Shown: in pieces, positions 5,478 through 26,210 of the stretch
Numbering within the stretch: the stretch's first letter is position 1
Layout: every line of letters begins with the position of its first letter
NCBI RefSeq assembly: GCF_003719295.1
Contig: NZ_RFLW01000001.1
Location: 744,001-808,000 of the forward strand
Reading direction: 5' to 3'
DNA: 64,000 bases
Source of the DNA: Haliea alexandrii
Lineage (GTDB): Bacteria > Pseudomonadota > Gammaproteobacteria > Pseudomonadales > Halieaceae
Made by a program: the position numbers and the translations under genes
Notes under the pieces: generated by a model
Told to the model about the DNA's origin: nothing
Seen by the model: the letters and a program-made list of their open reading frames with translations, nothing else
Database searches by the model: none

Positions 5478-6152
5478 ATGCTGCACAAAAAACTGCTTCC
5501 CGCTTCCGTCGCCGCCGTCCTGTTCGCAGGTGCTGTTTCTGCCCAGGCGGAAATCAGCGGTAACGTCACCCTCGCCACTGACTACGTGTTCCGTGGTATT
5601 TCGCAAACCGACGAGAAGGGCGCCATTCAGGGCGGCTTTGACTGGTCCGGCGATACCGGCCTGTATGCCGGTATCTGGGCCTCCAACGTCGCCTTCGGTG
5701 GTGCCACTACCGAGATGGATTACTACTTCGGCTACGCCGGTGAAACCGACGGCGGCTTCGGCTACGACGTGGGCTTTTTCTACTTCGATTACGAGGGTGA
5801 GTCGTCCCTCGACTACATCGAATACGCCCTGGGCCTGAGCTACGCCGACTTCAGCGTTGGTTTTGTGTACTCGGACGAGTTTGGTGATGGCGGCCCCGAG
5901 TACATGTACTACTCGGCCGGTTATTCCCTGGGCCTGACCGAAGCCCTCAGCGTGGACTTCAACATTGGCTTCACTGATACCGACCAGGACGACTACTGGG
6001 AAGCCGGCGCTGACAGCTACACAGACTATGGCGTCACCTTCGGTTACAGCGCCATGGAGCTGGATTTCGCCCTCGCGTTGATCGGCACTGATCTGGACGA
6101 TGTGGAAGCTGCGGACGACCGCATCGTGTTCTCCATCTCGAAGAGCCTGTAA
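5478..6152 (+). CDS. TorF-family putative outer-membrane porin
   Basis: A 224-residue outer-membrane protein of the TorF putative-porin family. A signal peptide is evident: KK, a hydrophobic core, then cleavage after AVSAQA near residue 24. The mature protein has repeated aromatic/glycine strands such as NVTLATDYVFRGISQTD and ends with a beta-signal-like IVFSISKSL. Proteins of this type are often found beside glnK-amtB; by position it could give ammonium or small N-compounds a route across the outer membrane, but no substrate is established. The AAGGAG ribosome binding site supports the start. It is the first gene after the sigma-54 promoter. Confidence 0.8.
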   Translation: MLHKKLLPASVAAVLFAGAVSAQAEISGNVTLATDYVFRGISQTDEKGAIQGGFDWSGDTGLYAGIWASNVAFGGATTEMDYYFGYAGETDGGFGYDVGFFYFDYEGESSLDYIEYALGLSYADFSVGFVYSDEFGDGGPEYMYYSAGYSLGLTEALSVDFNIGFTDTDQDDYWEAGADSYTDYGVTFGYSAMELDFALALIGTDLDDVEAADDRIVFSISKSL

Positions 6153-6174
6153 GCGTTTCGGGACTGAAACTTAC

Positions 6175-6192
6175 GGCGCCCCACGGGGCGCC
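6175..6192 (+). other. GC-rich hairpin between the porin gene and glnK
   Basis: GGCGCCCC-AC-GGGGCGCC is a perfect 8 bp stem with a 2-base centre, 22 bases after the porin stop and 22 before the glnK start. No U-tract follows, so it is not a standard terminator. It may cap and stabilise the upstream message or set the ratio of porin to GlnK-AmtB. Confidence 0.5.
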
Positions 6193-6199
6193 CTGCTGA

Positions 6200-6553
<354 letters not shown>

Positions 6554-6585
6554 ATCCACCGAGACTAACTACGAGAGTGATTCCC

Positions 6586-7857
6586 ATGGAAAACCAGATA
6601 TTTGAATTACAGTACGCGATGGACACCTTTTATTTCCTGGTGTGCGGCGCCCTCGTGATGTGGATGGCGGCCGGCTTCGCAATGTTGGAGGCGGGCCTGG
6701 TGCGCGCCAAAAACACAACGGAAATTCTGACCAAGAACGTGGCGTTGTACGCCATTGCCTGCACCATGTACCTGATCTGCGGTTACCAGTTCATGTACGA
6801 CGGTGGCTTCTTCCTGTCCGGTGTTACCACCGTGGCGCAGATGGACGATGTGGCAGTCGCCTCCGTGCTGGCAGACTCGGCAGAAGCAGGGTTCGGCGGT
6901 GATTCGGTGTACTCCGGCGCGTCCGACTTCTTCTTCCAGGTGGTGTTTGTCGCCACGGCGATGTCGATTGTGTCCGGTGCGGTTGCCGAGCGCATGAAGT
7001 TGTGGGCGTTCCTGGCCTTTGCCGTCGTCATGACCGGTTTCATCTACCCCATCGAGGGCGGCTGGACCTGGGGTGGCAAGGCAGTTCCGTTCATCGGTGA
7101 GCTGTCCTACAGCGACTACGCCGGCTCGGGCATTGTGCACCTTGCTGGTGCGGCTGCAGCACTTGCGGGTGTTCTGCTGCTCGGTCCGCGCAAGGGCAAA
7201 TACGCGGCTGACGGTTCGGTCAAAGCCATTCCCGGCGCCAACATGCCGCTGGCCACGCTTGGCACCTTCATCCTCTGGATGGGCTGGTTCGGCTTCAACG
7301 GTGGCTCAACCCTCAAGCTGGGTGGTATTGCCGTCGCCAACGAAGTGGCCAACGTGTTCCTGAACACCAACGCCGCTGCTGCCGGTGGCCTGATTGCGGC
7401 ATTGCTGCTGTCACGCCTGATCTTCGGCAAGGCCGATCTGACCATGGCCCTGAACGGCGCGCTCGCCGGCCTGGTGGCCATTACTGCCGAACCGGCTGAT
7501 CCCACGCCGCTGCTGGCGATGATCATCGGTGCCATCGGTGGTGTGATCGTGGTATTCAGCATCGTGGCGATGGACAAGGTGAAGATCGACGATCCGGTGG
7601 GTGCTATCTCGGTACACGGTGTCGTGGGCATCTGGGGCATCTTCGCGGTCCTGCTGTCCGACCCTGACGCGACCTTCATGGGTCAGCTGGTAGGTACTCT
7701 GGTGATCTTTGTCTGGGTCTTCGGCGCCAGCCTCATTACCTGGGCCATCCTCAAGGCGGTCATGGGTGTACGGGTCAGTGAAGAGGAAGAGTACGAAGGT
7801 GTCGACATGTCCGAGTGCGGTATGGAAGCCTACCCGGAGTTTGTGGCACAGAAGTAA
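6586..7857 (+). CDS. amtB: Ammonium transporter AmtB
   Basis: An Amt-family channel of 423 residues with about eleven membrane segments. The pore twin-histidine positions are seen in SGIVHLAGAAAAL and AISVHGVVGIWG. The ATG at 6586 is preferred over an in-frame GTG at 6577 because GAGAG sits about eight bases upstream. There is no obvious cleavable signal peptide beyond the first hydrophobic helix. AmtB takes up ammonium when it is scarce and is blocked by GlnK, whose gene is just upstream. A strong terminator follows. Confidence 0.96.
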   Translation: MENQIFELQYAMDTFYFLVCGALVMWMAAGFAMLEAGLVRAKNTTEILTKNVALYAIACTMYLICGYQFMYDGGFFLSGVTTVAQMDDVAVASVLADSAEAGFGGDSVYSGASDFFFQVVFVATAMSIVSGAVAERMKLWAFLAFAVVMTGFIYPIEGGWTWGGKAVPFIGELSYSDYAGSGIVHLAGAAAALAGVLLLGPRKGKYAADGSVKAIPGANMPLATLGTFILWMGWFGFNGGSTLKLGGIAVANEVANVFLNTNAAAAGGLIAALLLSRLIFGKADLTMALNGALAGLVAITAEPADPTPLLAMIIGAIGGVIVVFSIVAMDKVKIDDPVGAISVHGVVGIWGIFAVLLSDPDATFMGQLVGTLVIFVWVFGASLITWAILKAVMGVRVSEEEEYEGVDMSECGMEAYPEFVAQK

Positions 7858-7894
7858 GCAACAGCTTGCGGGCGCATTGATGCAATGCGTGTTT

Positions 7895-7919
7895 GGGGGC
7901 CTTCGGGCCCCCTTTTTTT
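7895..7919 (+). terminator. Rho-independent terminator after amtB
   Basis: GGGGGCC-TTCG-GGCCCCC (7895-7912) forms a 7 bp GC stem with a UUCG tetraloop, followed at once by seven T residues. It ends the porin-glnK-amtB transcript. The stop codon of the convergent MetX-like hydrolase lies at the edge of the T-tract. Confidence 0.92.
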
Positions 7920-8934
7920 ATTCTCGGGCGGTCGCGGCGAGTAGCTCGCTGACGGCCGCAAAGATGCAACGTGTTTCCTCGGGCAAGCGACCGGGCCCAC
8001 CCGCCACATGGCCAAAGCGCGACGCTATTACCCGGCATTCCATGCCCAGAGAGGCGGCATCGCGCATGGCGTCCTCCGCGGTGAAGTAGAGGTCGCTGCT
8101 GGAAGGCATGAGGATGCCGGGCCCGTGTGAACGTGCTTTTTCACCAGCCGCAGGCAGCAGGTTTGCGCTCTGCCAGGTACGCAGCTGCAGCAGCAGGTCG
8201 TTGGCATCCTGGCTCAGGTGATCTTCCACCCAGTACTGCAGCAGGTCCTCGATGCTGGCAAACCCCAGGTTGCGATAGAGCTCGTCGCGGAAGAACGCCT
8301 GGCTGTAGGCCCAGCCCGCGTAGACCGTTGCGAAGGCGCTCAGTCCACGCGCGGGCGGTGCCTTGTAGTGTCCCTCGGCGAAGCCCGGGTCCGCAGTGAG
8401 TGCGGCTGCCACACCTTCCAGGAAAACCCGGTTGTGGGGATAGCATTTTGCCGTTGCACACACGGCCAGCACGCTGTCCGCGGCGACCGGGTATGCCCGC
8501 GCCCATTGCAAGGCCTGCAATCCACCCATTGACCAACCCATAACCAGGCGCGGGGTGGCGCCGCCAAAGCGCGCTGTCAGGAGCGCCTGCTGAGCGGTGA
8601 CGTTGTCGGCAATACTGGTGAGCGGAAAGTCCGGCCCCGCCTGGGGTGGGGGTGTGTTACTGGGCGAACTGGATTCGCCGGCGCCAAAGAGGCAGGGAAT
8701 GATCACGCAGTAATCGCCGCCCCCCAACGGGCTGGCCGGGTCGTCGACCCAGGGGCGGTTGCCGGCGCCTGTACCACCGTAGTAGGTGGGCAATAGCACG
8801 AGGTTATCTTTTGGTGCGTTCAGTGCACCAAATTGGTGGTAGTGCAGCCGTGCGTTGTGTAACACCGCGCCGCTTTGCAGCACGAAAGCGCCCAGATCAT
8901 GCTCATGCTCCTGCCAATATACCTTATTTATCAA
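7918..8934 (-). CDS. MetX-like alpha/beta-hydrolase (homoserine acetyltransferase family)
   Basis: A 338-residue alpha/beta-hydrolase related to the MetX homoserine O-acetyltransferase group. The nucleophile elbow GWSMGG places the serine at residue 135; the late DLYF segment and FGHVAGGPG near the C-terminus probably give the Asp and His of the triad. The start is TTG at 8934, supported by AAGGAG eight bases upstream and the lack of an ATG. Many relatives are unspecified hydrolases, so a role in methionine synthesis is not assumed. It is divergent from the GlnT-like gene, with 102 bp between the start codons. Its place between nitrogen genes hints at amide or ester hydrolysis for nitrogen, but this is inference. 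Confidence 0.7.
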   Translation of the reverse strand: MINKVYWQEHEHDLGAFVLQSGAVLHNARLHYHQFGALNAPKDNLVLLPTYYGGTGAGNRPWVDDPASPLGGGDYCVIIPCLFGAGESSSPSNTPPPQAGPDFPLTSIADNVTAQQALLTARFGGATPRLVMGWSMGGLQALQWARAYPVAADSVLAVCATAKCYPHNRVFLEGVAAALTADPGFAEGHYKAPPARGLSAFATVYAGWAYSQAFFRDELYRNLGFASIEDLLQYWVEDHLSQDANDLLLQLRTWQSANLLPAAGEKARSHGPGILMPSSSDLYFTAEDAMRDAASLGMECRVIASRFGHVAGGPGRLPEETRCIFAAVSELLAATARE

Positions 8935-8966
8935 TGGGATGACTCCTTTTGTGCGCTTGCGAATTT

Positions 8967-9017
8967 AAACATACATTCTGGCATGTTTCTTGGATGCTTT
9001 CCTGTAGCAAGAAACAT
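8967..9017. promoter_or_regulatory. Operator-like inverted repeats in the divergent hydrolase/GlnT promoter region
   Basis: Three copies of the half-site AAACAT/ATGTTT lie in the 102 bp between the two divergent genes: AAACAT at 8967-8972, ATGTTT at 8983-8988 and AAACAT at 9012-9017. The last two belong to a perfect 10 bp inverted repeat, ATGTTTCTTG (8983-8992) and CAAGAAACAT (9008-9017), with a 15-base spacer. This may be an operator for the TetR-type regulator encoded at 10525, controlling both genes, or an RNA hairpin in the leader of the rightward gene. Confidence 0.55.
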
Positions 9018-9036
9018 TCCCGTCTATGGAGCTCTT

Positions 9037-10389
9037 ATGGAAATTGAACAGTTGAAACAACGGTGCCTGGAACAGGGCGTTAAATACGGCATAGCGAGCT
9101 ACGTGGATATTCACGGCGCGAGCAAGGGCAAGTTCGTGCCGGTTGGCCATTTCAAGCAAATGTTCGCCGGCTCGGAATTGTTCACCGGTGCCGCGCTGGA
9201 TGGCGTGCCACAGGACATCGCCGACAACGAGGTGGCCGCCATGCCGGACATGGCCTCAATGCAGCAGTGCCAATGGAACCCGGAGCTCGCCTGGTTCGCC
9301 AGCGACCTGTATCTGGATGGCAAACCCTTTGAAGCCTGCTCCCGCAGTATTCTCAAGCGACAGTTGGCAAAAGCAGCGTCCATGGGGTTCACCTTTAACC
9401 TGGGGATAGAAACCGAGTTCTTCATCTTGCGCCAGGCTGAGGATGGTCGCCCCGTACCCTTCAGTGACCGCGACACGCTGGGCAAGCCCTGCTACGACAT
9501 TCCCACCATGATGGACAATATCGGCATCATTGATGAATTGGTACAGGCCTTGAGTGGCATGGGTTGGGGTGTTTACTCCTTTGACCACGAGGACGCCAAC
9601 GGTCAGTTCGAGATCGACTTCAACTACGCCGATGCCCTGACCATGGCCGATCGCCTGGTGTATTTCCGCTTGCTGGCCAATGAGATCGCGCGCAAGCACG
9701 GCGCGTTCGCCAGCTTTATGCCCAAGCCCTTTGCCGATCGCACAGGGAGCGGCGCGCACTACAACATGTCGCTGGCCAGCGCGGAATCCGGGCAGAACCT
9801 GTTTGCTGTGTCCGCGGAAGATGACCGCTATGCCTGTGGCGTCTCCGAGCTGGCGTATCAGTTCATCGGGGGTGTGCTGCGCCACGCCAAGGCGATCAGC
9901 GCTGTGGTGGCGCCGACTGTGAACAGTTACAAGCGACTGGTGCGCCAGGGCAGTATGTCCGGCTCCACCTGGGCGCCGGTGTTCTGCTGTTATGGCAACA
10001 ACAATCGCACCAATATGTTGCGCATTCCCAGCGCAGGCGCGCGCGTAGAGTGCCGGGCACCGGATATCGCCTGCAACCCCTATCTGGGTGCTGCGCTGAT
10101 GCTCGCCGCCGGATTGGAGGGTATTGAGCAGGGTATTGACCCGGGCCAGCCACACCGGGAAAACATGTACCACTACAGCGATGCCGAAATCGCCGCGGCG
10201 GGTATCGAGTGCCTGCCCAAGACGCTCTCCGAGGCCACCGATGCCATCGCCGGGGATGAGCTCGCCTATAAGGTGCTCGGTGCCGATATGCACAAGGCCT
10301 TTGTCGACTTCAAACGGGCCGAGTGGGATAGCTACCACAACACCGTATCCGACTGGGAGGTGGCACGTTACCTGCGCCTCTTTGGCTAA
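9037..10389 (+). CDS. glnT: Glutamine synthetase family protein, GlnT/gamma-glutamylmethylamide synthetase type
   Basis: A 450-residue glutamine synthetase homologue. The N-terminal beta-grasp (YGIASYVDIHGASKGKFVPV) and catalytic domain (IETEFFI, NGQFEIDFNYADAL, PKPFADRTGSGAHYNMS) are intact. Its N-terminal pattern GSELFTGAALDGVPQ resembles the GlnT type III ligases, a group that includes gamma-glutamylmethylamide synthetase. It may ligate glutamate with ammonia or with a small amine. The start at 9037 is chosen by alignment with family N-termini; upstream in-frame codons read into the divergent gene. Whether the substrate is ammonia, methylamine or another amine cannot be read from sequence alone. 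Confidence 0.78.
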   Translation: MEIEQLKQRCLEQGVKYGIASYVDIHGASKGKFVPVGHFKQMFAGSELFTGAALDGVPQDIADNEVAAMPDMASMQQCQWNPELAWFASDLYLDGKPFEACSRSILKRQLAKAASMGFTFNLGIETEFFILRQAEDGRPVPFSDRDTLGKPCYDIPTMMDNIGIIDELVQALSGMGWGVYSFDHEDANGQFEIDFNYADALTMADRLVYFRLLANEIARKHGAFASFMPKPFADRTGSGAHYNMSLASAESGQNLFAVSAEDDRYACGVSELAYQFIGGVLRHAKAISAVVAPTVNSYKRLVRQGSMSGSTWAPVFCCYGNNNRTNMLRIPSAGARVECRAPDIACNPYLGAALMLAAGLEGIEQGIDPGQPHRENMYHYSDAEIAAAGIECLPKTLSEATDAIAGDELAYKVLGADMHKAFVDFKRAEWDSYHNTVSDWEVARYLRLFG

Positions 10390-10524
10390 ACACAGTCGGG
10401 CTCCCCGGTGCGGTGCGTTGCATCGGCCGGGGTTCAGTGTGTCCAGGCCTGGTATGCCGGGCGTGTGCTTGCCTTTGGGTGCGGTGCACTTACACTATAG
10501 GCTCTTTCACGGGCGGGGCGAAAC

Positions 10525-11136
10525 ATGAGGCGAACCAAGGAGGATGCGGCAAAAACCCGGCAGAGCCTGGTGGACGCGGCACTCAAGCTCTTTGGCCAGC
10601 GCGGCTACAGCGGCACGACCCTGCGTCTTATTGCGGACGAGGCGGGGTGTTCCCGCGGGCCGATTTACTGGCATTTCGCCAGCAAGGAAGAGTTATTCGA
10701 GGAAATCCTCGCCTATTCGCAGCTGCCTCTGGAGCGTCTGGTCGCCCTGCATCACGAAGCGATTGACCCGCTGGCTGCTGCAGCGGAATTTTCCCGGCAG
10801 TGGTTGCGCATGCTGCTGGATGACAGCTACTTTCGCCAGTCCTTCGAGATCTTCCTCAACAAGACCGAGTTTACCGAGGCGGTATCCAAAACCCTGGCGC
10901 GCGAGCGGGCGCTGACGGCGTCACTGATTACCACTTTCGCTGACTGGGTAGAGCGCTATCGTGCTGAACACGGCGTGACGGGGGCAAGTAGCAGTCGCAC
11001 GGTGGCACTGTCCCTGTATGCCTATCTGATGGGGCTGACGCAAAGCTGGTTGTTCGATTCCGGTATTACGGATCTGGACAACAACCTCGAATTCTTTGTC
11101 GGCGAGTTCCAGCGACTGCTACGTACAGGCGAGTGA
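10525..11136 (+). CDS. TetR/AcrR-family transcriptional repressor
   Basis: A 203-residue TetR-family protein. The helix-turn-helix spans about 10-55 (TRQSLVDAALKLFGQRGYSGTTLR... IYWHFASKEELF), with an AcrR/TtgR-like ligand domain after it. It lies 135 bp after the GlnT-like gene and converges with the ABC ATPase gene, whose 3' end it overlaps by 18 bp. Possible targets are the inverted repeats at 8967-9017 or the leftward nitrogen operon. A TACACTAT stretch just upstream could be a -10 element of its own promoter. Confidence 0.85.
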   Translation: MRRTKEDAAKTRQSLVDAALKLFGQRGYSGTTLRLIADEAGCSRGPIYWHFASKEELFEEILAYSQLPLERLVALHHEAIDPLAAAAEFSRQWLRMLLDDSYFRQSFEIFLNKTEFTEAVSKTLARERALTASLITTFADWVERYRAEHGVTGASSSRTVALSLYAYLMGLTQSWLFDSGITDLDNNLEFFVGEFQRLLRTGE

Positions 11137-11913
11137 TTGCGAGCGCATCATCTGGCGTATCTTGCGCTCCAGGTAACGGTACTCTTCGAAGTCCAGTATG
11201 GCATCGCGGTCATCGCTGCTTTTTTCCAGCCCGGGGCGAATGGTCTCGAGAATACGACCTGGCCGCGTGCCCATGAAGAACACCACGTCACCCAGGTAAA
11301 GTGCTTCTTCGATGTCGTGCGACACCATGAGTACGGTGGTGCGCTCCTGGTGCACGATTTCCAGCAGCAGGCTCTGCATCTGCCAGCGGGTTTCCGGGTC
11401 CAGGGCGCCGAAGGGTTCGTCCATCAGCAGCAGTGAGGGGTTGCTGGCCAGACTGCGCGCGATGGCAACGCGCTGCTGCATGCCACCGGAGAGCTGGTGT
11501 GGGTAGGCGCGTTCGAAGCCGCCCAGTTTCACCGCCTTGATGAAATACGGCACCACGCCTTCACGCAGGCTGAGCGCTTCCCCGCGGGCCTTGAGGCCGA
11601 ACGCCACATTCTCCTCGACGGTCAGCCAGGGGAAGGAACTGTAGTTCTGGAACACCATGCCCCGGTCGATGCCGGGGCCGTGAACGGCGCTGCCGTCGAC
11701 GACGATCTCACCGGCGTCCTGCGTTTCCAGGCCGGCGATAATCCGCAACAGTGTGGATTTGCCGCAACCGGAGGGGCCGAGCAACACCCCGACACCGGTT
11801 TTTGGCAGTTCGAAGTTGATGTTGTCCAGGGCGGTCAGGGTCTGCCCCGAGCGCAGCAGGAAATGCTTGCTGACGCCCGAGACAGTAAGTCCGCTGTGTG
11901 TCGCGTCGCTCAT
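11119..11913 (-). CDS. ABC transporter ATPase, NrtD/TauB/SsuB type
   Basis: A 264-residue ABC ATPase of the nitrate/sulfonate/taurine class. It has Walker [11 protein letters not shown]-loop FQNYSSFPW, signature [16 protein letters not shown] and Walker [13 protein letters not shown]. The ATG at 11913 overlaps the stop codon of the substrate-binding gene by one base (TAATG), so translation is probably coupled. It is the last gene of the five-gene leftward operon that begins at 15655. Substrate is unknown; class members move small N- or S-containing organic ions. Confidence 0.92.
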
Positions 11914-12935
11914 TATTTCAGCGCCGCTGCCAGCGGGGTGGTGTCGACGCCGGCTGCCATCGGCATCGCCTTGTCGATGAAGCCGAACTTCAGCCACCAG
12001 TCGGTGGTGACATCCCAGTGGTTCTGCATGCCGTCGGAGACGATACCCAGCGGTAATTCACCGGCTTTCAACCCCATGAAAATGGCGGCCTGGTCGCGAT
12101 CGAATACAAAGATACCCCCTTTGAGGATCTCTCCGGTGCTGCCCAGTACCTGCTCCACATCGGCAACGGTAAATTGCAGGCCGTCGGCGATAATCTGGTT
12201 CGCCTCTGCGGTGTTGGCCTTCCAGAAATCAACGGCGTTGAAGTAAGCGCGCGTGAGCTTCGCGGCATCCTCAGGGCGTTCTGCCATGAAGGCCGTGCTC
12301 ATGTACAGTGCATCGCCCAGCATCGCCGTGGTGATGTACTTCTCTTCGGTGGAATCTGCCGCGACGGTCGCACCTGGCATCGCTTCAAGTACTTGCGAGC
12401 CAAAGGGTTCCCAGAATTCGGCGGCCGCTGCGGTGCCGCCGACCATGGCGCCCACCGCATCATCCATGATCAGGTTGGTGAAGGTGACTTCATCAATGCC
12501 GACGCCGTTGTCCGTGAGCCACTCGGCCATGAAAATCTGCGTCAGACCGCCTTCCAGCACGGCGACTGTCTCGCCTTTGAGTTGCTCCGCGCTGGTGATG
12601 CCCGGTGCGAGGACGATCTTGTCTGTGCCGTAGGACGGGTTGGTATAGGTGACCAGTTTGATGCCAACGTCTTTGTCGGCGGCGATGGGGCCGTATTCCG
12701 CCGTGCTTGAGGTGGCGTGTAATTCACCTGCCGTCATCAGGGCAAAACTTTGGTAGGGGTCTTCGATGATGCTGATATCGAGCTCCAGGCCTTCAGTGAG
12801 GCCTTTCTCCTTGGCGATGAACCAGAAGCCGTAGCCGGGCCAGGAAAAAAGCGACAGTTTTACAGGATCTGCCGCTTGCGTGGCGGACCCCAGGGCGAGG
12901 GCCAGAATGGCAATGCCGGATCGAATGTAGTGCAT
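11913..12935 (-). CDS. ABC transporter periplasmic substrate-binding protein, NrtA/TauA type
   Basis: A 340-residue periplasmic binding protein. A signal peptide is plain (MHYIRSGIAILALALGSATQAA, cleavage near residue 22). The mature part begins PVKLSLFSWPGYGFWFIAKE, typical of the NrtA/SsuA/TauA group. AGGAG stands well placed before the ATG at 12935; longer in-frame extensions run into the upstream permease gene. It shows little obvious similarity at its N-terminus to the second binding protein at 16226, so the two transporters probably have different ligands. Confidence 0.88.
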   Translation of the reverse strand: MHYIRSGIAILALALGSATQAADPVKLSLFSWPGYGFWFIAKEKGLTEGLELDISIIEDPYQSFALMTAGELHATSSTAEYGPIAADKDVGIKLVTYTNPSYGTDKIVLAPGITSAEQLKGETVAVLEGGLTQIFMAEWLTDNGVGIDEVTFTNLIMDDAVGAMVGGTAAAAEFWEPFGSQVLEAMPGATVAADSTEEKYITTAMLGDALYMSTAFMAERPEDAAKLTRAYFNAVDFWKANTAEANQIIADGLQFTVADVEQVLGSTGEILKGGIFVFDRDQAAIFMGLKAGELPLGIVSDGMQNHWDVTTDWWLKFGFIDKAMPMAAGVDTTPLAAALK

Positions 12936-12963
12936 GGTGGTACTCCTTTGCGGTTGAGTGCTG

Positions 12964-13770
12964 CTAGTGGGACTCGAGGTAACGAAACGCAGTGCGATGC
13001 AGCAGTTTGAACAATGCGTCAAAAAGCAGGCCCAGCAGGCCAATAACCAGAATGCCGGCCATGATGTCGTCGATGTGCACGAAGCGTTTGGCACGCATCA
13101 TCATGGCGCCGATGCCGTCGGTGGCTGCGACGATCTCGGCAATCACAAGGTAGGTCCAGCTCACCGCGAGCATCTGCCGCAGCACATCGAGGTAGCCGGG
13201 CAAGCTGGACCGCAGGGTCACAGACAGCAGGATCTGGGGCGCGCGCAACCCGAGGGTGCGAGCCGTTTCTATATAGACCCTGGGTACCAGTCGAGTGACG
13301 TCGGCGAGCATGATGATGAGGAAGAACAGCACGCCGATCACCAGCAGGGCGATCTTCTGCTCGTCTCCGGTGCCCAGCCACATGAGCAGCAGGGGAATAA
13401 AGGCCGGGGCGGGCAGGTAGCGGAAGGCGCTGGCCAGGGGGCCGATAACCCGATCCACCGGGCGATAGGCGCCCATCAACAAGCCGAGTGGCAGGGCGAT
13501 CGACACGGCGATACCAAAGCTCAACAGAATGCGCTTCACGCTCGCCCAGATGTCGCTGGCGAAGTCCTTTTCCACCAGCAGCTCATAGAGGCTGGTGAAG
13601 ACTTTTTCCGGGCCCGGGAACAGACGCGGCGGGGCGATCTCGGCGTGGGCGGCGAGCCACCAGCCACCAATGAAAAGCATCCAGCCCAGTGCGCCAAGCA
13701 GTGTTCGCGAGCCGAGCACGGCTGCGGCCTTGTCGCTCATGCGGGCAGTTTTGTCGTTGGCTTCGGTCAT
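12964..13770 (-). CDS. ABC transporter permease, NrtB/TauC/SsuC type
   Basis: A 268-residue inner-membrane permease with about six membrane segments and the EAA-loop region ETARTLGLRAPQILLSVTLRSSLPGYLDVLR that docks to the ATPase. It begins six bases after the stop of the desaturase-like gene and is followed by the binding protein and the ATPase, giving a complete importer. An early hydrophilic N-terminus (MTEANDKTARMSDK) precedes the first helix; an internal ATG at residue 11 is an alternative start. Confidence 0.9.
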   Translation of the reverse strand: MTEANDKTARMSDKAAAVLGSRTLLGALGWMLFIGGWWLAAHAEIAPPRLFPGPEKVFTSLYELLVEKDFASDIWASVKRILLSFGIAVSIALPLGLLMGAYRPVDRVIGPLASAFRYLPAPAFIPLLLMWLGTGDEQKIALLVIGVLFFLIIMLADVTRLVPRVYIETARTLGLRAPQILLSVTLRSSLPGYLDVLRQMLAVSWTYLVIAEIVAATDGIGAMMMRAKRFVHIDDIMAGILVIGLLGLLFDALFKLLHRTAFRYLESH

Positions 13771-13776
13771 CGTGAC

Positions 13777-14790
13777 TTAAAACGCCGTGAGAAAGCTGAG
13801 TGCATCGACGCCCACGGCACGGCCTTCCCTGAGAGACGCCTTGACCTCATCGGCGCCGTACTCCTCGGCGTAAATCCGCGACACACGGTGCTTGTGAAAA
13901 GCGCGTGCCTGCTCGGCGAAGCCCAGGGTCTGTGCCTCCACGGCCGGCTGCAGGGTGCTGTGCAGCTCAGGCAGCCGGTACCAGCCCAGCGTAGGCTTTT
14001 CGTGGTGTGCATTGTGGTAACAGAAGTTGAGCACCAGCAGGTTGATAGCAGGAAAACGATGGGAGAGCAGGTTGCTGTAGGTGTTGGCCTGCTCGTACTC
14101 GGCATCACCCTTGTGCGGGAACACGGTGTCGGTGTCGTCGAGGTTGAAAATGACTTCGTAATTGTGCTGGTAGCAATCCATGAAGCGCAGCGCGGTAAAC
14201 AGCAGCAGTTGGGCGAGCGCGTAGAGCAGGAAAGCCACGGGGCTGATGACCAGTACCAGGGCCAGAATGGCGCTGCGTATCAGCAGTACCCGCAGTACAC
14301 GCCCGCGCTGCGCCCGCTTGGATTCGATCACCCAGGGCGCAATGACGAGCATGGTGTGCATCATGATTTCAACGGCGGGGATATAGGCCCACTCCGCTGC
14401 GTGTACCACCTTGGCCAGTGCGGGGTGACGCTTGAGGAAGCTGCGATAATCCCACACTACGGGGTCGTAATTGTCGACGTGATGGCGCATGTGCTTGTAG
14501 CGGATATCCTCGAAGCGGCCATAGCAGCTGCCGGCTACCCAGTTCAGCACCTTGCCCAGGGCGGCGTTCGCTTTCGCCGACATGAATACCGCGTTGTGGC
14601 CGCAGTCGTGGAGAAGGTATGCGGCGATGAGCATGCTGTGTGCGAGCGCGATAACGCCCACCGCATTGACGGCGGCGTTTGCCTGGAACAGGGCGAGCCA
14701 GCCGCCTGTGTAGGCGAGTGCAATGTAGGCCAGAACCAGAACGGTGTAGTGCGCGCCCGCAGGGTCGCGCAGTTTGAAGACGTCACGCAT
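13777..14790 (-). CDS. Membrane fatty-acid-desaturase-like diiron oxygenase
   Basis: A 337-residue integral membrane protein of the fatty acid desaturase/alkane hydroxylase fold. Its three histidine boxes are HDCGH (61-65), HMRHH (100-104) and HNAHH (259-263), with a further His at about 209, so the diiron ligands look complete. Membrane segments fall near 15-60 and 135-205. Despite its name it need not act on lipids; related proteins hydroxylate alkanes, sterols and other small molecules. It sits inside a sigma-54-driven operon with an NrtA-type importer, so a role in oxidising an imported nitrogen compound is proposed. Its start overlaps the upstream gene by 8 bp. Confidence 0.8.
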   Translation of the reverse strand: MRDVFKLRDPAGAHYTVLVLAYIALAYTGGWLALFQANAAVNAVGVIALAHSMLIAAYLLHDCGHNAVFMSAKANAALGKVLNWVAGSCYGRFEDIRYKHMRHHVDNYDPVVWDYRSFLKRHPALAKVVHAAEWAYIPAVEIMMHTMLVIAPWVIESKRAQRGRVLRVLLIRSAILALVLVISPVAFLLYALAQLLLFTALRFMDCYQHNYEVIFNLDDTDTVFPHKGDAEYEQANTYSNLLSHRFPAINLLVLNFCYHNAHHEKPTLGWYRLPELHSTLQPAVEAQTLGFAEQARAFHKHRVSRIYAEEYGADEVKASLREGRAVGVDALSFLTAF

Positions 14791-15655
14791 GACGGGCCTC
14801 CTTGTGGGCAGGGGTTTGTGACCAGAGCGCGAAGTGCCTCTGTTCCTCGGCGCCGATCCAGCGGTTGAGATCCCACAGGTCGGCGATGGGTGCGTTGGTG
14901 AAGGGGAGGTGGTGCAGGTAGCCGTCCGGGCCGAACTCCGGCGTGAGTGTGGTTTCGTCGTAGCCACGCGCCTGTTGCGCGGACCAGATGGCCTCCCAGC
15001 AGCGTTGATGGCTGGCCAGTGCCTCGGCGTACTCGGGCGCGCCGGGGTGCGGCACCTGCGGCCCCTGGTCGTAGCCCACCCGGCCGTGTACGTGGTGGGC
15101 GTGTTCAGCGGCGAGGGTGATGGCATCCCATTCGCTGTCCATCAGGCGCTCGCTCACAACCACCCAGTGGCTGAAGTCGCAGGTGATTTTGATGTCCGGC
15201 AACTGCTCTAAAATGGCTACCGTGTTCCAGGGGCAGTAGAAGCTGCGCCCGCGGTGGGTCTCGAAAGAGCAGAGCACCCCGTGTTTGTCGGCGATGTCCA
15301 TGGCGGCCTGGAAGAAGCGCACACTGTCTTCGATCGGCCAGGCATCGCAGCCCCCCATGACATTGATGAAGCGGGGCGCGAGTGGTTTGCCGAGGACGAT
15401 CTGGGCCTCGAGGTCTTCCAGGTGTTCACTGATGCTGGCACGTCGGCGCGGCACATAGGAGCCTGCAGTACAGATCTCCTGGATCCACTCCAGTCCGTGC
15501 GCTTCCAGCGCCGCAGCCAGTGTCTTCAGGTGGCCGGGCGCGCTGTGCAAGGCGGGCGCCTCGAGCCCGGCGAAGCCGGCGGCCCGGGCCAGCTGGGCGC
15601 CCTGGTCGATGCTGCCGGTATGTCCCCACAGGGTTTTAAAGGTACGTAATTGCAT
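14783..15655 (-). CDS. Xylose-isomerase-like TIM-barrel protein
   Basis: A 290-residue sugar phosphate isomerase/epimerase-like (AP endonuclease family 2 fold) TIM-barrel protein. Possible metal ligands are seen in CSFETHRGR, ITCDFSHWV, HHVHGRVGYD and TLTPEFGPDG, in the order expected for the fold. Family members include sugar epimerases, endonuclease IV and hydrolases, so the reaction is not set by the fold. It is the first gene of the leftward operon, 35 bases from the sigma-54 element, and its end overlaps the desaturase-like gene. The pairing of these two gene types in a nitrogen-type operon is unusual. Confidence 0.72.
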   Translation of the reverse strand: MQLRTFKTLWGHTGSIDQGAQLARAAGFAGLEAPALHSAPGHLKTLAAALEAHGLEWIQEICTAGSYVPRRRASISEHLEDLEAQIVLGKPLAPRFINVMGGCDAWPIEDSVRFFQAAMDIADKHGVLCSFETHRGRSFYCPWNTVAILEQLPDIKITCDFSHWVVVSERLMDSEWDAITLAAEHAHHVHGRVGYDQGPQVPHPGAPEYAEALASHQRCWEAIWSAQQARGYDETTLTPEFGPDGYLHHLPFTNAPIADLWDLNRWIGAEEQRHFALWSQTPAHKEARHA

Positions 15656-15690
15656 GCTCTGGTCCTGGCTTTGGTGCTTGCTTAAGGGCG

Positions 15691-15706
15691 AGCAACTTCC
15701 ATGCCA
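15691..15706 (-). promoter_or_regulatory. Sigma-54 promoter of the leftward operon
   Basis: Read on the minus strand, TGGCATG-GAAG-TTGCT matches TGGCACG-N4-TTGCW with one mismatch in the -24 box and exact GG-N10-GC spacing. Transcription would start about 12 bases beyond the GC, near 15679, leaving a leader of roughly 24 bases before the ATG at 15655. This points to nitrogen-limitation control of the TIM-barrel, desaturase-like and ABC transporter genes. Confidence 0.82.
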
Positions 15707-16015: not shown

Positions 16016-16065
16016 TTGACCTTGCTGTCCGTACTCCTGACAAGACGCGACACGCAAACCAATAG

Positions 16066-16162
16066 AGCGCTAGGGTTCCGACCGCAAGCATTGCGGTGAC
16101 TGGTCCGAGAGCACTCGACCTTTCGGTGAAGGGTTACACGGCGGGACAAAAGCCCGGGAGAA
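16066..16162 (+). ncRNA. Guanidine-I riboswitch (ykkC subtype 1)
   Basis: The conserved blocks of the ykkC guanidine-I aptamer are present in order: CTAGGGTTCCG (16070-16080), ACTGGTCCGAGAG (16099-16111), and ACACGGCGGGACAAAAG followed by CCCGGGAGA (about 16136-16161). This RNA binds guanidinium and turns on downstream genes. The region between aptamer and start codon holds GTACTCT (16183-16189), which could pair with AGAGGTAC (16215-16222) at the ribosome binding site; translational control is therefore possible but unproven. No strong U-tract terminator is seen. The riboswitch is the main evidence that the operon handles guanidine rather than urea. Confidence 0.95.
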
Positions 16163-16225
16163 CTGAAGGCGAAATGCCGGGGGTACTCTGTGATTAACCG
16201 ACCAAACCCGACTGAGAGGTACACC

Positions 16226-17266
16226 ATGAAGCGTATTAGTTTATTCCTGCTCCTGTTGCTGTTGTCGACCACAGCCTCGGCCCGCGACAGTTTCAAGATC
16301 TGCTGGTCGATCTATGTTGGCTGGGTACCCTGGGCCTACGGTGCCGATCAGGGCATTGTCGACAAGTGGGCCGACAAGTACGGCATCGATATCGAGGTGG
16401 TGCAGATCAACGACTACATCGAATCCATCAACCAGTACAGCATGGGTGAGTTCGATGCCTGCACCATGACCAACATGGATGCGCTGACCATCCCTGCCGC
16501 TGGTGGCGTTGACAGTACGGCGCTGATCGTTGGTGACTTCTCCAACGGCAACGACGGCATTGTGCTCAAGGGCAAGGACTCACTGGCGGATATCAAGGGC
16601 CAGACCGTCAACCTGGTGGAGTTGAGCGTGTCTCACTATCTGCTGGCGCGCGGCCTGGAAAGTGTCGGCCTGACGGAGCGTGATGTTGAGGTCGTGAATA
16701 CCTCGGATGCCGATATGGTGGCGGTGTATGCCACACCCGGTGTGACCGCAGTGGCAACCTGGAACCCGCTGCTGAGTGAAGTGGCCGCCATGCCAGACAG
16801 CCATCGCGTGTTCGATTCCTCGCAGATTCCCGGCGAAGTGATCGACCTGCTGATCATCAACACGGAAACACTGGCGGCGAACCCGGCACTGGGCAAGGCG
16901 CTTACCGGCGCCTGGTACGAAATCATGGCGCACATGAGCGGTGGCGATGAGCGTGCAACCGCCGCCAAGACCTTCCTCGCAGAGCTTTCCGGTACTGACC
17001 TGCCGGGCTTTGAGTCGCAGCTGGCCAGCACCGAAATGTTCTACACCCCCGCAGAAGCGCTGGCGCTGACCAATAGCGAGCAGGTTAAAGAAACCATGCA
17101 GACCGTTGCCGAGTTCTCACACAAGCACGGCTTGCTGGGTGAGGGCGCACCGGATGCCACCTTCATCGGTGTCGAGACCCCGGCGGGTGTGTACGGCGAC
17201 AGCAACAATATCAAGCTGCGCTTTGATCCAACCTACATGCAAATGGCTCTGGACGGCGAACTCTAG
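16226..17266 (+). CDS. Guanidine ABC transporter substrate-binding protein, NrtA/TauA-like
   Basis: A 346-residue periplasmic binding protein with a signal peptide (MKRISLFLLLLLLSTTASA, cleavage near residue 19). The mature part begins FKICWSIYVGWVPWAYGADQG, and the aromatic residues here are suited to a cationic ligand. The ATG at 16226 follows GAGAGGT. It is the first gene under the guanidine-I riboswitch and is followed by its permease and ATPase. The riboswitch and downstream guanidine enzymes point to guanidine as ligand; this is inferred from context. Confidence 0.87.
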   Translation: MKRISLFLLLLLLSTTASARDSFKICWSIYVGWVPWAYGADQGIVDKWADKYGIDIEVVQINDYIESINQYSMGEFDACTMTNMDALTIPAAGGVDSTALIVGDFSNGNDGIVLKGKDSLADIKGQTVNLVELSVSHYLLARGLESVGLTERDVEVVNTSDADMVAVYATPGVTAVATWNPLLSEVAAMPDSHRVFDSSQIPGEVIDLLIINTETLAANPALGKALTGAWYEIMAHMSGGDERATAAKTFLAELSGTDLPGFESQLASTEMFYTPAEALALTNSEQVKETMQTVAEFSHKHGLLGEGAPDATFIGVETPAGVYGDSNNIKLRFDPTYMQMALDGEL

Positions 17267-17325
17267 GCACATCGCTGTGCGCGGGGGCATGGTGCCCCCG
17301 CGACCCGCTCTCGCAAGGAAGGATC

Positions 17326-18144
17326 ATGAAGCGCCTCATCAACCAGACACCTGCGCCGATGCTGCGCGTGCTGCTGGGCCTGCTGCCCTTTGTGCTGCTG
17401 GTGCTGCTGTACATGTTCGCCTCGGAGGCGCGGCTGACAGAGAACCCCTCTGACAAGCTGCTGCCAAGCTTTACCCAGATTGGCGATGCCATTGAGCGCA
17501 TGGCTTTCGAGCCCAGCAAGCGCAGTGGAGATTACCTGTTCTGGGAGGACACCCTGAGCAGCCTCACCCGTCTTGGGATGGGCGTGCTCATTGCGTCTGC
17601 GATCGGACTCGCGCTGGGCCTGTTTACCGGGGCCTTGCCGCTGGTGTCCGCCTCTGCCAGCCCGCTGCTCACGGTCGTCTCGTTGATTCCGCCGCTGGCG
17701 ATTCTGCCGGTGCTGTTCATTGTGTTCGGTCTCGGTGAGCTGTCTAAGGTGGCCTTGATCGCCATTGGCATTACCCCGTTCATCGCGCGCGACATACAAC
17801 GGCGCACGCAGGAGATTCCCTCTGAGCAGCTGGTGAAGGCGCAAACCCTCGGCGCCAACACCAGCCAGATTATCTGTCGGGTGCTGCTGCCGCAGTTGAT
17901 GCCGCGCCTGGTGGATGCCGTGCGGCTGTCGCTGGGTGCCGGCTGGCTGTTTCTCATCGCGGCGGAAGCCATCGCGGCGACTGAGGGGCTGGGCTATCGC
18001 ATCTTTCTGGTGCGGCGCTATATGGCGATGGACGTCATCCTGCCCTACGTGGCCTGGATAACGCTGCTGGCGTTTGTGATCGACGCGCTGCTCGCAACCC
18101 TCAGCCGTCGCCTGTTTCCGTGGCACCATCACGGAGGCCAGTGA
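17326..18144 (+). CDS. Guanidine ABC transporter permease
   Basis: A 272-residue inner-membrane permease of the NrtB/SsuC/TauC family with about six membrane segments. The cytoplasmic EAA loop is seen around LVKAQTLGANTSQIICRVLLPQLMPRLVD. AAGGAAGGA precedes the ATG by a few bases. It follows the binding protein by 59 bp and its stop overlaps the ATPase start (ATGA-type), so the two are probably translationally coupled. Confidence 0.9.
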   Translation: MKRLINQTPAPMLRVLLGLLPFVLLVLLYMFASEARLTENPSDKLLPSFTQIGDAIERMAFEPSKRSGDYLFWEDTLSSLTRLGMGVLIASAIGLALGLFTGALPLVSASASPLLTVVSLIPPLAILPVLFIVFGLGELSKVALIAIGITPFIARDIQRRTQEIPSEQLVKAQTLGANTSQIICRVLLPQLMPRLVDAVRLSLGAGWLFLIAAEAIAATEGLGYRIFLVRRYMAMDVILPYVAWITLLAFVIDALLATLSRRLFPWHHHGGQ

Positions 18145-18920
18145 TGATTGAAGCGCGCAATCTGTGGAAGAAGTTCGGCGACAAGGTGGTGCTGGAACGC
18201 ATCAATCTGCAGGTGCAGGAGGGTGAGTTCGTTACCCTGGTGGGCACCTCCGGTTGCGGCAAGAGCACCTTCCTCAACATGCTGCTGGGCACCGAGCCTG
18301 TCAGCAGCGGCGAATTGCTGCTGCACGGCAAGCCGGTGCCGGGTGAGCCAGGGCCGGATCGCGGCATCGTGTTCCAGCAGTACTCGGTATTCCCGCACAT
18401 GACCGTGCTGCAAAATGTCATGGCGGCACGCGGCTTTGCCCGCCGCAGCCTCACCGGTGCACTGTTTGGCAGCGCGCGCCGCGAGGCGCGGGAAGAGGCT
18501 CTGGGGCTGCTCGAAGAAGTGGGCCTGTCCCACGCGCAGGGCCTCTATCCGGCAGAATTGTCCGGTGGCATGCGCCAGCGCCTGGCGATAGCCCAGGCGC
18601 TGCTCGGTCGCCCTGGTATTCTCCTGCTCGACGAGCCTTTCGGGGCGCTCGATCCCGGCATCCGCGCCGACATGCACGACCTGGTCTTGCGGCTCTGGCG
18701 CCAGTACCGGCTCACGGTATTCATGGTGACGCACGACCTGAAAGAAGGCTTCTACCTTGGCACCCGTTTGTGGGTGTTTGACAAGACGCGGCACGACCCG
18801 CAGGCGCCGAATGCCTACGGGGCCACCATCACCTACGACCTCCCGGTAGGCAAGATTGACCGGGATACCCTTTCCGATATCGATCGCGACCTGGCGCGCG
18901 CAGTCACAGAGACGGCCTGA
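18144..18920 (+). CDS. Guanidine ABC transporter ATPase
   Basis: A 258-residue ABC ATPase with Walker A GTSGCGKST, Q-loop FQQYSVFPH, signature LSGGMRQRLAIAQALL and Walker [13 protein letters not shown]. The ATG at 18144 overlaps the permease stop by one base and has GGAGG upstream. It supplies energy for the importer. A longer C-terminal part (WVFDKTRHDPQAPNAYGATITYD) follows the catalytic core, as in many NrtD-like ATPases from urea/guanidine operons. Confidence 0.92.
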   Translation: MIEARNLWKKFGDKVVLERINLQVQEGEFVTLVGTSGCGKSTFLNMLLGTEPVSSGELLLHGKPVPGEPGPDRGIVFQQYSVFPHMTVLQNVMAARGFARRSLTGALFGSARREAREEALGLLEEVGLSHAQGLYPAELSGGMRQRLAIAQALLGRPGILLLDEPFGALDPGIRADMHDLVLRLWRQYRLTVFMVTHDLKEGFYLGTRLWVFDKTRHDPQAPNAYGATITYDLPVGKIDRDTLSDIDRDLARAVTETA

Positions 18921-18921
18921 C

Positions 18922-19641
18922 ATGATGAACGCATGGGATTACGAAACCGAAATCGCCCCCGGGGGCCATTGGTCACTGCGCCTGCGCAGAGGCACCGAAA
19001 TGCGGCTTACCGACCTGGCGGGCAACGCCAACCTCGGCATGCTTTTTTACAACCCGGAGAACCTGCTGGAACGGTATAACGCCCCCGACACGCTGAAATG
19101 CCAGCACACCTTCAAGCTGACCCGGGGTCACTGCCTGTATTCGGATATGGGCCGTATATTCGCCTCTGTCATCGAAGATTCGGCTGGCTGGCATGAAACG
19201 GTCTGCGGCAATTCACACGCCGAGCATGTGGCGGCGCGGTGGGGTGGACGCGACTATCAGGCAGACCGCAATGACTGGCACCAGAACGGTCACGATGCCT
19301 TCCTCGTTGAACTGGCCAAATACGGGCTTGGCGCAGCGGACATGGCGGCGAACATCAACTGGTTCAGCCGGGTGGCCACCGATGCCAGTGGCAACCTGCG
19401 CTTGCTGCAGGACCACAGCCCTGCCGGCAGCCACGTGAAGCTGCGTTTTGAAATGGACACACTGGTGTTGCTGCATGCCTGCCCACACCCCCTGAGTCAG
19501 GCGTTGGCTTACCCGCGCAGCCCTGTGCGCATTGCCCTGGGCAAGGCGGACCCGGTAGCGGAAGACGACGCTTGCCTGAACCACTGCGAAGAGAACCGTC
19601 GGGGCTTTCGCAACAATATGCTGTATCACCTGGGACGTTGA
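18922..19641 (+). CDS. Carboxyguanidine deiminase subunit (DUF1989, first 'urea carboxylase-associated' protein)
   Basis: A 239-residue DUF1989 protein, of the type long called urea amidolyase-associated protein 1. With its partner, the next gene, such proteins were shown in other bacteria to form carboxyguanidine deiminase (CgdAB), which converts carboxyguanidine to allophanate and ammonia. Typical elements are [21 protein letters not shown], the cysteine-bearing [19 protein letters not shown] and [14 protein letters not shown]. The start could be 18922 or the next ATG at 18925. It is one base from the ATPase stop. Which Cgd letter applies is left open. Confidence 0.85.
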
Positions 19642-19651
19642 GGAGCCCGTC

Positions 19652-20293
19652 ATGTTGACTGAAAGTGCACGTCTTCCCGAAGAAGCAAGCGATCGCACCA
19701 CCGTGCCGGCGGGTGATTATTACCTGGGGCGCCTGAACGCCGGTCAGACTCTGCGCATCCTGGATAGCGAAGGCAACCAGGCGGCCGATACGCTGTTTTA
19801 CAGCGCCGACGACAGCAGTGAGCGCTACAGCGCCGCCGACACCATTCGGGAGCAGGGCAATGTCTACCTGACCGCGGGGTCGGTACTGCGTTCCACCCGC
19901 AATACCCCCATGCTGGAAATTGTTGCCGACACCTGCGGCCGCCACGACACGCTGGGGGGGGCTTGCGCCAGCGAGAGCAACACGGTGCGCTACGACCTGG
20001 AAAAACGCTGCATGCACTCCTGTCGCGATAGCTGGATGCTGGCCATTGCCGAACACCCGGAATACGGCATTGGCAAGCGCGACATTGGCCACAATATCAA
20101 TTTCTTCATGAACGTGCCGGTGACGGAAGCGGGCGGGCTCACCTTCGAGGACGGTATTTCCGCGCCGGGTAAATATGTGGAAATGACCGCATTGATGGAC
20201 GTGGTGGTGCTCATATCCAACTGCCCGCAGCTGAATAACCCCTGCAACGGTTTCAATCCGACACCCGTTGAGGTGTTGGTCTGGGATCACTGA
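19652..20293 (+). CDS. Carboxyguanidine deiminase subunit (DUF1989, second 'urea carboxylase-associated' protein)
   Basis: A 213-residue DUF1989 protein, partner of the preceding gene. Shared elements are [46 protein letters not shown] and [19 protein letters not shown]. Several Cys and His residues suit a metal-bound deiminase site. GAGGAG overlaps the upstream stop codon and supports the ATG at 19652. The heterodimer would act between the carboxylase and allophanate hydrolase in guanidine breakdown. Confidence 0.87.
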
Positions 20294-20362
20294 ATTCGAT
20301 AACCCCTGTGGTGGACGACCACAACAGGTAGCGACAAGACGGGACGACCCGCGCCAGGTTTG

Positions 20363-23300: not shown

Positions 23301-23973
23301 GTACCTGGACGGCGGAAAACTCCGTGGGCATTGGCGGCTCCTACCTCTGTGTGTACGGCATGGAGGGGCCGGGCGGCTACCAGTTTGTCGGCCGCACCCT
23401 GCAGATGTGGAATCGTTACCGGCGCACCGCGGAGTTCGAGCAGCCCTGGCTATTGCGCTTCTTCGACCAGATCCGCTTCTACGAGGTGAGTCACGCTGAG
23501 CTTGAGCAAATCCGCCGCGATTTTCCGCAGGGGCGCTATCCGCTGAAGATAGAAGAGACACAGTTTTCGTTGGCGGATTACGAGGACTTTGTCGCCAGTA
23601 ATGCGGGCGCCATCGACAGCTTCCGCGACCACCGTCAGCAGGCTTTTGCCGCCGAACTGGCCCAATGGCATGCCAACGGTCAGTTCAATTTTGCTGAAGA
23701 AGATGTGCCGGAAGCGGTGACCGAGCAGAGCTGGCCCGACACGGCAACGGTGGTAGACAGCCCGGTTTCCGGCAGCGTCTGGCAGCTGAACGTGCAGGTA
23801 GGCGACAGTGTGCGCCGCGGTGAGCCGCTGGTGGTGCTGGAGTCGATGAAGATGGAGATAGCGGTCTTTGCGCCCTGTGATGCTGTTGTCAGCCAGGTTT
23901 TGCTGTCACCCGGTAGTCGGGTCGCTGCAGGGCAGGCCCTGGTGGTCCTTGAAGACAGTGAAGGAGCTTCGCT

Positions 23974-23977
<4 letters not shown>
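20363..23977 (+). CDS. Biotin-dependent guanidine carboxylase (urea-carboxylase family)
   Basis: A 1204-residue multidomain biotin carboxylase. Residues 1-450 form the biotin carboxylase (FDTVLVANRGAIA; glycine-rich STAGGGGIGMQL). Residues about 455-980 are KipA/KipI-like (AHS2/AHS1) carboxyltransferase domains, followed by a family-specific region with YNPARTWTAENSVGIGGSY. The C-terminal biotinyl domain has ESMKMEI with the modified Lys at about 1163. The family holds both urea and guanidine carboxylases. The riboswitch and deiminase genes favour guanidine, which is carboxylated with ATP and bicarbonate. ATG 20363 or 20366 is the start. The last four bases overlap the hydrolase gene (ATGA). 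Confidence 0.9.

Positions 23978-26210
<2,233 letters not shown>

Follow-up and report, generated by a model that had tools for sequence, protein, structure and literature searches.

A putative sigma-54-dependent operon for oxidative dealkylation of N-alkylguanidines in Haliea alexandrii

The five-gene operon and its protein families

The window analysed here, a 64-kb stretch of the Haliea alexandrii genome (contig NZ_RFLW01000001.1, positions 744,001 to 808,000), carries a compact operon of five genes on its minus strand. The first gene (14783-15655) encodes a TIM-barrel protein, hereafter TIM (PF01261, AP_endonuc_2, 41.5 bits). It is followed by the gene for a desaturase-like membrane protein, hereafter DES (13777-14790; PF00487, FA_desaturase, 110.9 bits), and by those for an ATP-binding cassette (ABC) importer, namely a NitT/TauT-type permease (12964-13770; PF00528, BPD_transp_1, 80.9 bits), an NrtA/SsuA-type periplasmic binding protein (11913-12935; PF09084 and PF13379, NMT1 43.2 bits) and an ATPase (11119-11913; PF00005, ABC_tran, 107.1 bits); all five Pfam matches exceed the curated cut-offs. 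TIM and DES overlap by 8 bases, 6 bases separate DES from the permease gene and 28 the permease from the binding protein gene, and the latter overlaps the ATPase gene by 1 base. A sigma-54 (-24/-12) promoter element, TGGCATGGAAGTTGCT, of the kind associated with nitrogen starvation, lies on the same strand at 15691-15706 and is the sole match to TGGCAYRNNNNTTGCW in the window (0.18 expected). The initial annotation had described five packed genes in one direction behind a sigma-54 site, divergent from a guanidine operon and including a desaturase-like protein with all three histidine boxes. The open reading frames (ORFs), spacings and unique element bear out the first part of this description; the riboswitch and guanidine-carboxylase genes on the plus strand confirm the divergence, and the histidine boxes proved invariant, as detailed below.

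This promoter element, recognized by pattern, is kept in relatives. Of 31 window-type loci, 30 have TGGCAY-N6-TGC in the 150 bp ahead of TIM, compared with 0.008 expected per 150 bp in the same loci, and the bases separating its two blocks differ among them. The one miss is L011 (locus and genome numbers are those of our survey), in which a looser scan placed a site farther upstream. The conserved element ahead of the first gene suggests that the operon is sigma-54-dependent. The order of the five genes is retained in loci of Halieaceae, Marinobacter, Alcanivorax/Alloalcanivorax, Oleiphilaceae and Pseudomonadaceae, and the arrangement is therefore not a matter of chance.

DES clears the PF00487 gathering threshold of 29.7 bits by a wide margin. 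The histidines of its three boxes (H61, H65; H100, H103, H104; H259, H262, H263) and an additional H209 are the same in every one of the 61 sequences aligned; these represent 60 distinct loci, and the 47 loci scanned for riboswitches are counted as 46, because L033 and L069 are the same contig. DES falls well short of the equivalog cut-offs for DesA, CrtR and CrtW (for the delta-5 fatty acid desaturase DesA, 33.1 against 500 bits with NF052548), and a PDB search with the DES alignment profile returned no relative at E 0.1. Like other members of the PF00487 desaturase/hydroxylase superfamily, DES is a membrane protein with three histidine boxes; it differs in being linked by context to a small polar cation. 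We propose DES to be a membrane di-iron desaturase/hydroxylase-like enzyme and a putative N-alkylguanidine hydroxylase. Action on guanidine itself was also considered and judged unlikely, because genomes G134, G019 and G093 encode carboxyguanidine deiminase without a DES match. In a DES tree of 58 rows, the window type clades with Halieaceae, Methylophaga, Alcanivoracaceae and Marinobacter, and the operons in the remaining clades feature riboswitches or fused guanidine genes; the exact placement of L068 and L070 is unsure because their long branches meet.

TIM exceeds the PF01261 gathering threshold of 31.1 bits as a xylose-isomerase-like TIM barrel. Its predicted fold (mean predicted local distance difference test score 86.7) is nearest to metal-dependent sugar epimerases and isomerases; only this general superfamily emerged from the fold comparison, and a PDB sequence search with the TIM alignment found nothing. 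L-ribulose/D-allulose/D-tagatose 3-epimerases and IolE-like isomerases share 12-20% identity with TIM in alignments, and the window operon is without sugar genes. Residues E132, D160, H163, H188 and E240 are retained both in DES-linked TIMs and in those linked to the dioxygenase MgdH (see below); judging by the superfamily, these acidic and histidine residues presumably form a metal site. TIM is proposed to be a metal-dependent lyase of carbinolamines (N-hydroxyalkylguanidines). In L031, L054, L055, L065 and L196-L198, the gene divergent from TIM encodes c13, a small and conserved protein (about 120-150 residues) that is helix-turn-helix-like by eye. A Pfam scan of the L065 copy gave no match, and c13 is a candidate regulator.

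Association with guanidine riboswitches and the carboxylase pathway

Divergently from the operon, on the plus strand, a guanidine-I riboswitch (16059-16162; RF00442, 96.7 bits, gathering threshold 63) precedes an operon for guanidine import and carboxylation (16190-25779; TIGR03427, TIGR03425 and TIGR02712 above cut-off). The latter encodes a binding protein (TIGR03427, 549.5 bits), a permease, an ATPase, two DUF1989-type proteins, a 'urea' carboxylase (TIGR02712, 1837.9 bits) and an allophanate hydrolase. UAAP1 scores 322.8 bits, and these three scores all exceed their cut-offs; the permease, the ATPase, the second DUF1989-type protein and the allophanate hydrolase were assigned by eye. The proteins in the title of Schneider et al. 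are, we take it, the UAAP proteins. The minus-strand operon is a separate transcription unit with a separate importer. We propose, with a probability of about 0.65, that it serves to scavenge nitrogen from an N-alkylated guanidine, methylguanidine being the likeliest; DES would hydroxylate the substrate and TIM would split the resulting carbinolamine. Oxidative dealkylation of some N-alkylguanidine appears very probable from the genomic evidence, and the chances that methylguanidine itself is the substrate are about even.

This proposal draws in part on the placement of riboswitches. In an Rfam scan, 11 of 46 distinct DES loci had a guanidine riboswitch ahead of DES or its operon (L061, L064, L068, L070, L084, L085, L087, L088, L090, L091 and L092), and in four of these, L068, L084, L088 and L091, the distance from the end of a guanidine-II aptamer to the DES start is about 8-16 nt. 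The scan was negative for L134 and L169-L172, where MgdH accompanies TIM, and for L173, L175, L196-L198, L016, L022 and L021. DES also belongs to guanidine-carboxylase (urea amidolyase-associated) operons. L033 encodes on one strand, in order, a binding protein, a permease, an ATPase, a creatininase-like protein, a type III glutamine synthetase-like ligase (GSIII), DES, TIM, a NikR-like regulator, UAAP1, UAAP2, the carboxylase and allophanate hydrolase; L091 is similar apart from lacking the NikR-like regulator, and in L070 DES lies within the guanidine-carboxylase operon and TIM is absent.

Carboxyguanidine deiminase was found in 23 of 23 searched genomes with a window-type pair (the window genome and those of L006-L012, L014-L026, L030 and L031, the last just outside the window-type clade) compared with 5 of 22 DES-negative genomes, 1 of 12 among those of the same family. 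The associated Fisher test (p 2e-8) ignores relatedness, and its DES-negative controls were hand-picked. Among six further genomes with a distant DES, the deiminase was present in two (G029, G104) and had no match in four (G280, G009, G113, G279).

The importer set is complete, with an NMT1-type binding protein, permease and ATPase of the NrtA/TauA type, and stays below the NCBIfam cut-offs of the nitrate, taurine, sulfonate and urea/guanidine importer classes. The permease is SaoP/TauC/SsuC-like and yet under every listed cut-off (TauC, 116.1 against 342 bits), as is the binding protein (SsuA_fam, 76.0 against 163.5; ABC_peri_uca, 38.8 against 333.9). The affinity of the binding protein and permease to the SsuA and TauC families, the membership of DES in the FA_desaturase family and the separation of most window-type loci beyond Haliea from guanidine genes would suit an operon for the uptake and oxidation of a sulfonate or lipid-like compound, with an accidental guanidine neighbourhood. 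However, the transporter scores fall under those cut-offs, and riboswitch placement, operon membership, the co-occurrence with deiminase in 23 of 23 genomes and the partner exchange described below make this explanation highly improbable; a lipid or sulfonate role was rejected on the riboswitch, operon and partner-exchange evidence.

Exchange of partners with MgdH and MgdL

A related pathway has been described in Vreelandella boliviensis by Sinn et al. (PMC12508155), whose main text reports that the 2-oxoglutarate dioxygenase MgdH hydroxylates methylguanidine, and that the lyase MgdL (essential D49 and R51), a beta-barrel in that paper's model, splits N-hydroxymethylguanidine, which is long-lived, to give guanidine and formaldehyde. 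Locus L130 resembles the published order, with guanidine ABC genes, UAAP1, UAAP2, carboxylase, dioxygenase and a small protein whose translation reads D at position 49 and R at position 51. Its dioxygenase and small protein, together with the MgdL homologue of L092, served as probes. All four pairings of an oxygenase (DES or MgdH) with a lyase (TIM or MgdL) occur. DES is paired with TIM in 41 of 60 distinct loci, with a distant TIM relative (c15) in 3 more and with MgdL in 5 (L061, L064, L085, L087, L092), all carrying the D-L-R motif; both lyases within 10 kb of one DES were found in 0 of the 60. MgdH is paired with MgdL in L130, L132, L133 and, in the window's own genome, L173. In the DES tree, the gene of L085 (with MgdL) and that of L088 (with TIM) are sisters.

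MgdH matches occurred in 41 genomes, and 30 loci were examined, a second G057 copy (48%) being left out. In the 16 closest (at least 53% identity to the query), TIM lies immediately upstream of MgdH in 5 and an MgdL-family gene immediately downstream in 11 (the MgdL match is only partial in L152 and L153). Each of the 16 thus has exactly one of the two lyases, and the 14 weaker loci have none. As a control, TIM was present in 12 of 99 Pseudomonadaceae genomes, always in the company of DES or an MgdH-type oxygenase: 2 copies lie directly beside DES and 9 directly beside an MgdH-type gene, and in the twelfth (L196) a guanidine-type binding protein gene comes next and then an MgdH-type gene. Because c13 diverges from TIM in L196 as it does in the DES operons L197 and L198, MgdH there occupies the place of DES. 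Of 33 genomes chosen by hand, 11 have TIM: nine carry it next to or close to DES, G094 next to MgdH and G059 next to UAAP1. The MgdH set shares genomes G094, G122 and G147 with the set of Pseudomonadaceae TIMs.

In a TIM tree of 49 rows, five MgdH-linked TIMs form one clade (100/99) within the DES-linked TIMs; this tree is not relied on, because the enclosing fork has only 89/95 and the row of L027 (branch length 10, probably wrong frame) is unsuitable. Two broader expectations failed. TIM and MgdL do not exclude each other genome-wide, as G094 carries both, each with its own oxygenase; nor do DES and MgdH, since among 293 genomes of the order, 21 with DES and 16 with a close MgdH, 3 have both (1.1 expected, p 0.10). 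We consider it somewhat better than an even chance that DES and TIM form with MgdH and MgdL a mix-and-match kit of two unrelated oxygenases and two unrelated lyases, in which TIM would found a family of metal-dependent carbinolamine lyases, DES would oxidatively dealkylate small soluble guanidines, and members would be tuned to methylguanidine, creatine or guanidinoacetate; the kit would give bacteria access to alkylguanidines as sources of nitrogen.

The window operon resembles MgdH/MgdL in being an oxygenase and lyase pair tied to the guanidine-carboxylase pathway, with the partners swapped in other genomes. Where that system uses a 2-oxoglutarate dioxygenase and MgdL, the window operon has a membrane desaturase-like enzyme and a TIM barrel, respectively, and it also brings its own importer and sigma-54 promoter; it has no MgdH homologue or MgdL-type lyase, the window genome's copies lying elsewhere, on contig C6.

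A longer substrate, such as an extended alkylguanidine, arginine or agmatine, is also conceivable for DES, by comparison with plant homoarginine hydroxylases and the cyanobacterial transmembrane enzyme GntB. The latter is desaturase-like and is said to hydroxylate arginine to gamma-hydroxyarginine. It is described as producing the linear precursor that is cyclised to enduracididine (PMC10367076). The nearest PDB entry to the MgdH type is named ethylene/succinate-forming enzyme, and an ethylene-forming enzyme is described as freeing guanidine from arginine (PMC12186494). However, the window importer is of the NitT/TauT type and not the amino-acid type, and inspection by eye of window-type loci revealed no linked genes for semialdehyde or amino-acid products, making a substrate of this kind improbable. 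GntB of the guanitoxin pathway, although likewise a transmembrane enzyme in guanidino-compound metabolism, is biosynthetic, and is set beside DES by description rather than by sequence.

Proposed pathway, contrary observations and neighbouring genes

In the pathway that we favour, the NrtA-type ABC transporter would import an N-alkylguanidine, and DES, as an integral-membrane non-haem di-iron enzyme, would hydroxylate the carbon bonded to the guanidine nitrogen. TIM, probably metal-dependent, would then cleave the stable carbinolamine (N-hydroxymethylguanidine if the substrate is methylguanidine) into guanidine and an aldehyde (formaldehyde), and the released guanidine would turn on the divergent guanidine-carboxylase operon through its riboswitch and be converted to ammonia. 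The release of guanidine from an alkylguanidine by hydroxylation had been suggested in the initial annotation, which gave no role for the TIM barrel and drew no comparison with MgdH/MgdL, and finds support in the riboswitches before DES, the membership of DES in guanidine-carboxylase operons and the exchange of partners with MgdH/MgdL. The pathway logic has been known since 2025, and the enzymes here differ from MgdH and MgdL. The annotation had also known of no described system with such a gene set; in agreement with this, a literature search on gene combinations, with subscription journals and supplements outside its scope, found neither a description of the set nor any account of guanidine metabolism that involves a desaturase-like or TIM-barrel protein. 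The words 'desaturase' and 'TIM barrel' are absent from the main text of PMC12508155, and where PMC12186494 and PMC11410670 speak of a 'desaturase', the passages concern the arginine 4,5-desaturase NapI.

Guanidine riboswitches are widespread, and the natural sources of guanidine are poorly known. The operon suggests that part of natural guanidine derives from alkylguanidines cleaved by DES/TIM enzymes. At the family level, DES and TIM are recognised as no more than 'fatty acid desaturase' and 'xylose isomerase-like TIM barrel'. Their hosts include marine Halieaceae, Marinobacter, Alcanivorax and Methylophaga, and the proposal offers these two poorly described groups of proteins a concrete role that is cheap to test.

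Several observations weigh against this interpretation. Most window-type operons outside Haliea do not adjoin guanidine genes, clear guanidine-cassette genes lying within 10 kb only in L030 and, more distantly, L021; the conserved linkage whose absence in relatives the annotation had named as refuting its idea is to that extent missing, although the deiminase is encoded in all 22 of these genomes that were searched. A guanidine riboswitch precedes the DES operon in 0 of 18 window-type loci scanned, the window's own belonging to the divergent operon, and 11 of 60 distinct DES loci lack TIM, c15 and MgdL within 10 kb (some contigs end early, that of L027 being short). Formaldehyde genes were seen in a single DES locus (L067), whose genome has no deiminase match; this linkage carries little weight beyond that locus because its formaldehyde dehydrogenase was found in 7 of 8 genomes searched, including three DES-negative ones. 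The equation of L128/L130 with the published MgdH/MgdL is probable from gene order and D49/R51, not from the name. The two lyases of G094 reside in one genome with separate oxygenases, and MgdH-linked TIMs beside amino-acid-type transporters carry substitutions at several sites (A105 to R, H190 to Q, E60 to I/T). GSIII, a MetX-like hydrolase, a lactonase-like metallo-beta-lactamase-fold protein and an EamA transporter are not accounted for by the scheme. Finally, the window genome owns a second locus, the MgdH-MgdL pair of L173 beside a guanidine-type binding protein gene, and DES-TIM may therefore be redundant or act on another guanidine.

The last point also bears on a different substrate for the same chemistry, namely creatine, creatinine or guanidinoacetate as the compound hydroxylated by DES, with TIM freeing methylguanidine, or guanidine, together with glyoxylate or formaldehyde. 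Creatininase-family genes lie within 10 kb of DES in L033 (= L069), L061, L064, L086, L087, L090, L091 and L092, and that of the L092 DES operon passes TIGR04448 (377.9 bits, cut-off 235), which points also to creatine or creatinine. The TIM-MgdH loci L171 and L172, with an agmatinase-family ureohydrolase and a GhrA-like glyoxylate reductase (194.1 bits, below the cut-off of 403), also point this way. In contrast, window-type loci have no creatininase gene within 10 kb, the L033 gene is below the creatininase cut-off (129.5 against 235), and a guanidine-II switch ahead of DES suits guanidine or methylguanidine. We regard such a substrate as unlikely for the window operon, and N-alkylguanidine scavenging as the better explanation.

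Several further loci were recorded in the survey. The DES operons of L061, L064, L087, L090 and L092, under guanidine-I riboswitches, contain short-chain dehydrogenase/reductase (SDR), creatininase-family and biuret-hydrolase-like isochorismatase-fold genes, hinting at creatinine or biuret-like substrates. In L171 and L172 (G065, G125), agmatinase-family, TIM, MgdH-type dioxygenase, amino-acid-type ABC importer, class II aldolase-like and GhrA-like genes stand in a row, and the TIMs have R105 and Q190; this system might split guanidinoacetate into guanidine and glyoxylate. In the window genome, L173 (G000:C6:194000-213000) holds at 5501-10093 MgdH-MgdL, one uncharacterised ORF and the guanidine-type binding protein gene, with an EamA transporter gene converging, and is probably a second, parallel alkylguanidine system. 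L129 (G000:C6:226000-242000) holds at 7334-10926 a Rieske-oxygenase-like gene (judged from its first residues), an SDR gene, a creatininase-type gene (55% to that of L092) and an MgdL-like gene with D-L-S in place of the D-L-R motif; the locus may represent a third oxidative pathway, with a guanidino or creatinine-like substrate.

With an E-value limit of 1e-40, relatives of DES were detected in 41 of the 140 family genomes, in 21 of the 293 from the order, and in 11 of 369 and 7 of 398 genomes sampled from the class and the phylum, respectively; the samples overlap and each includes the window genome. A separate scan among named genomes gave 32 DES loci, and Methylophaga has a TIM-DES pair with no importer within 10 kb. 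The lactonase-like protein recurs by DES in L056, L063, L082, L084, L085, L086, L087, L090 and L092, directly downstream of it in several loci, and lies near the operon in L006 and L014.

Next to the window operon, on the plus strand, are genes for a TetR-type regulator (10525-11136; PF00440), which adjoins the operon in many relatives, and for GSIII (8875-10389; TIGR03105, 561.8 bits, cut-off 469.6), a recurrent DES partner; the MetX-like alpha/beta hydrolase (7918-8934, minus strand; PRK07581, 302.7 bits, below the cut-off of 332) stays beside GSIII. Homologues of the window's TetR (51%) and GSIII (70%) are found at the guanidine locus of Marinobacter salinexigens (L138). The window genome is close to Haliea salexigens (L004), with DES 94% and TIM 97% identical.

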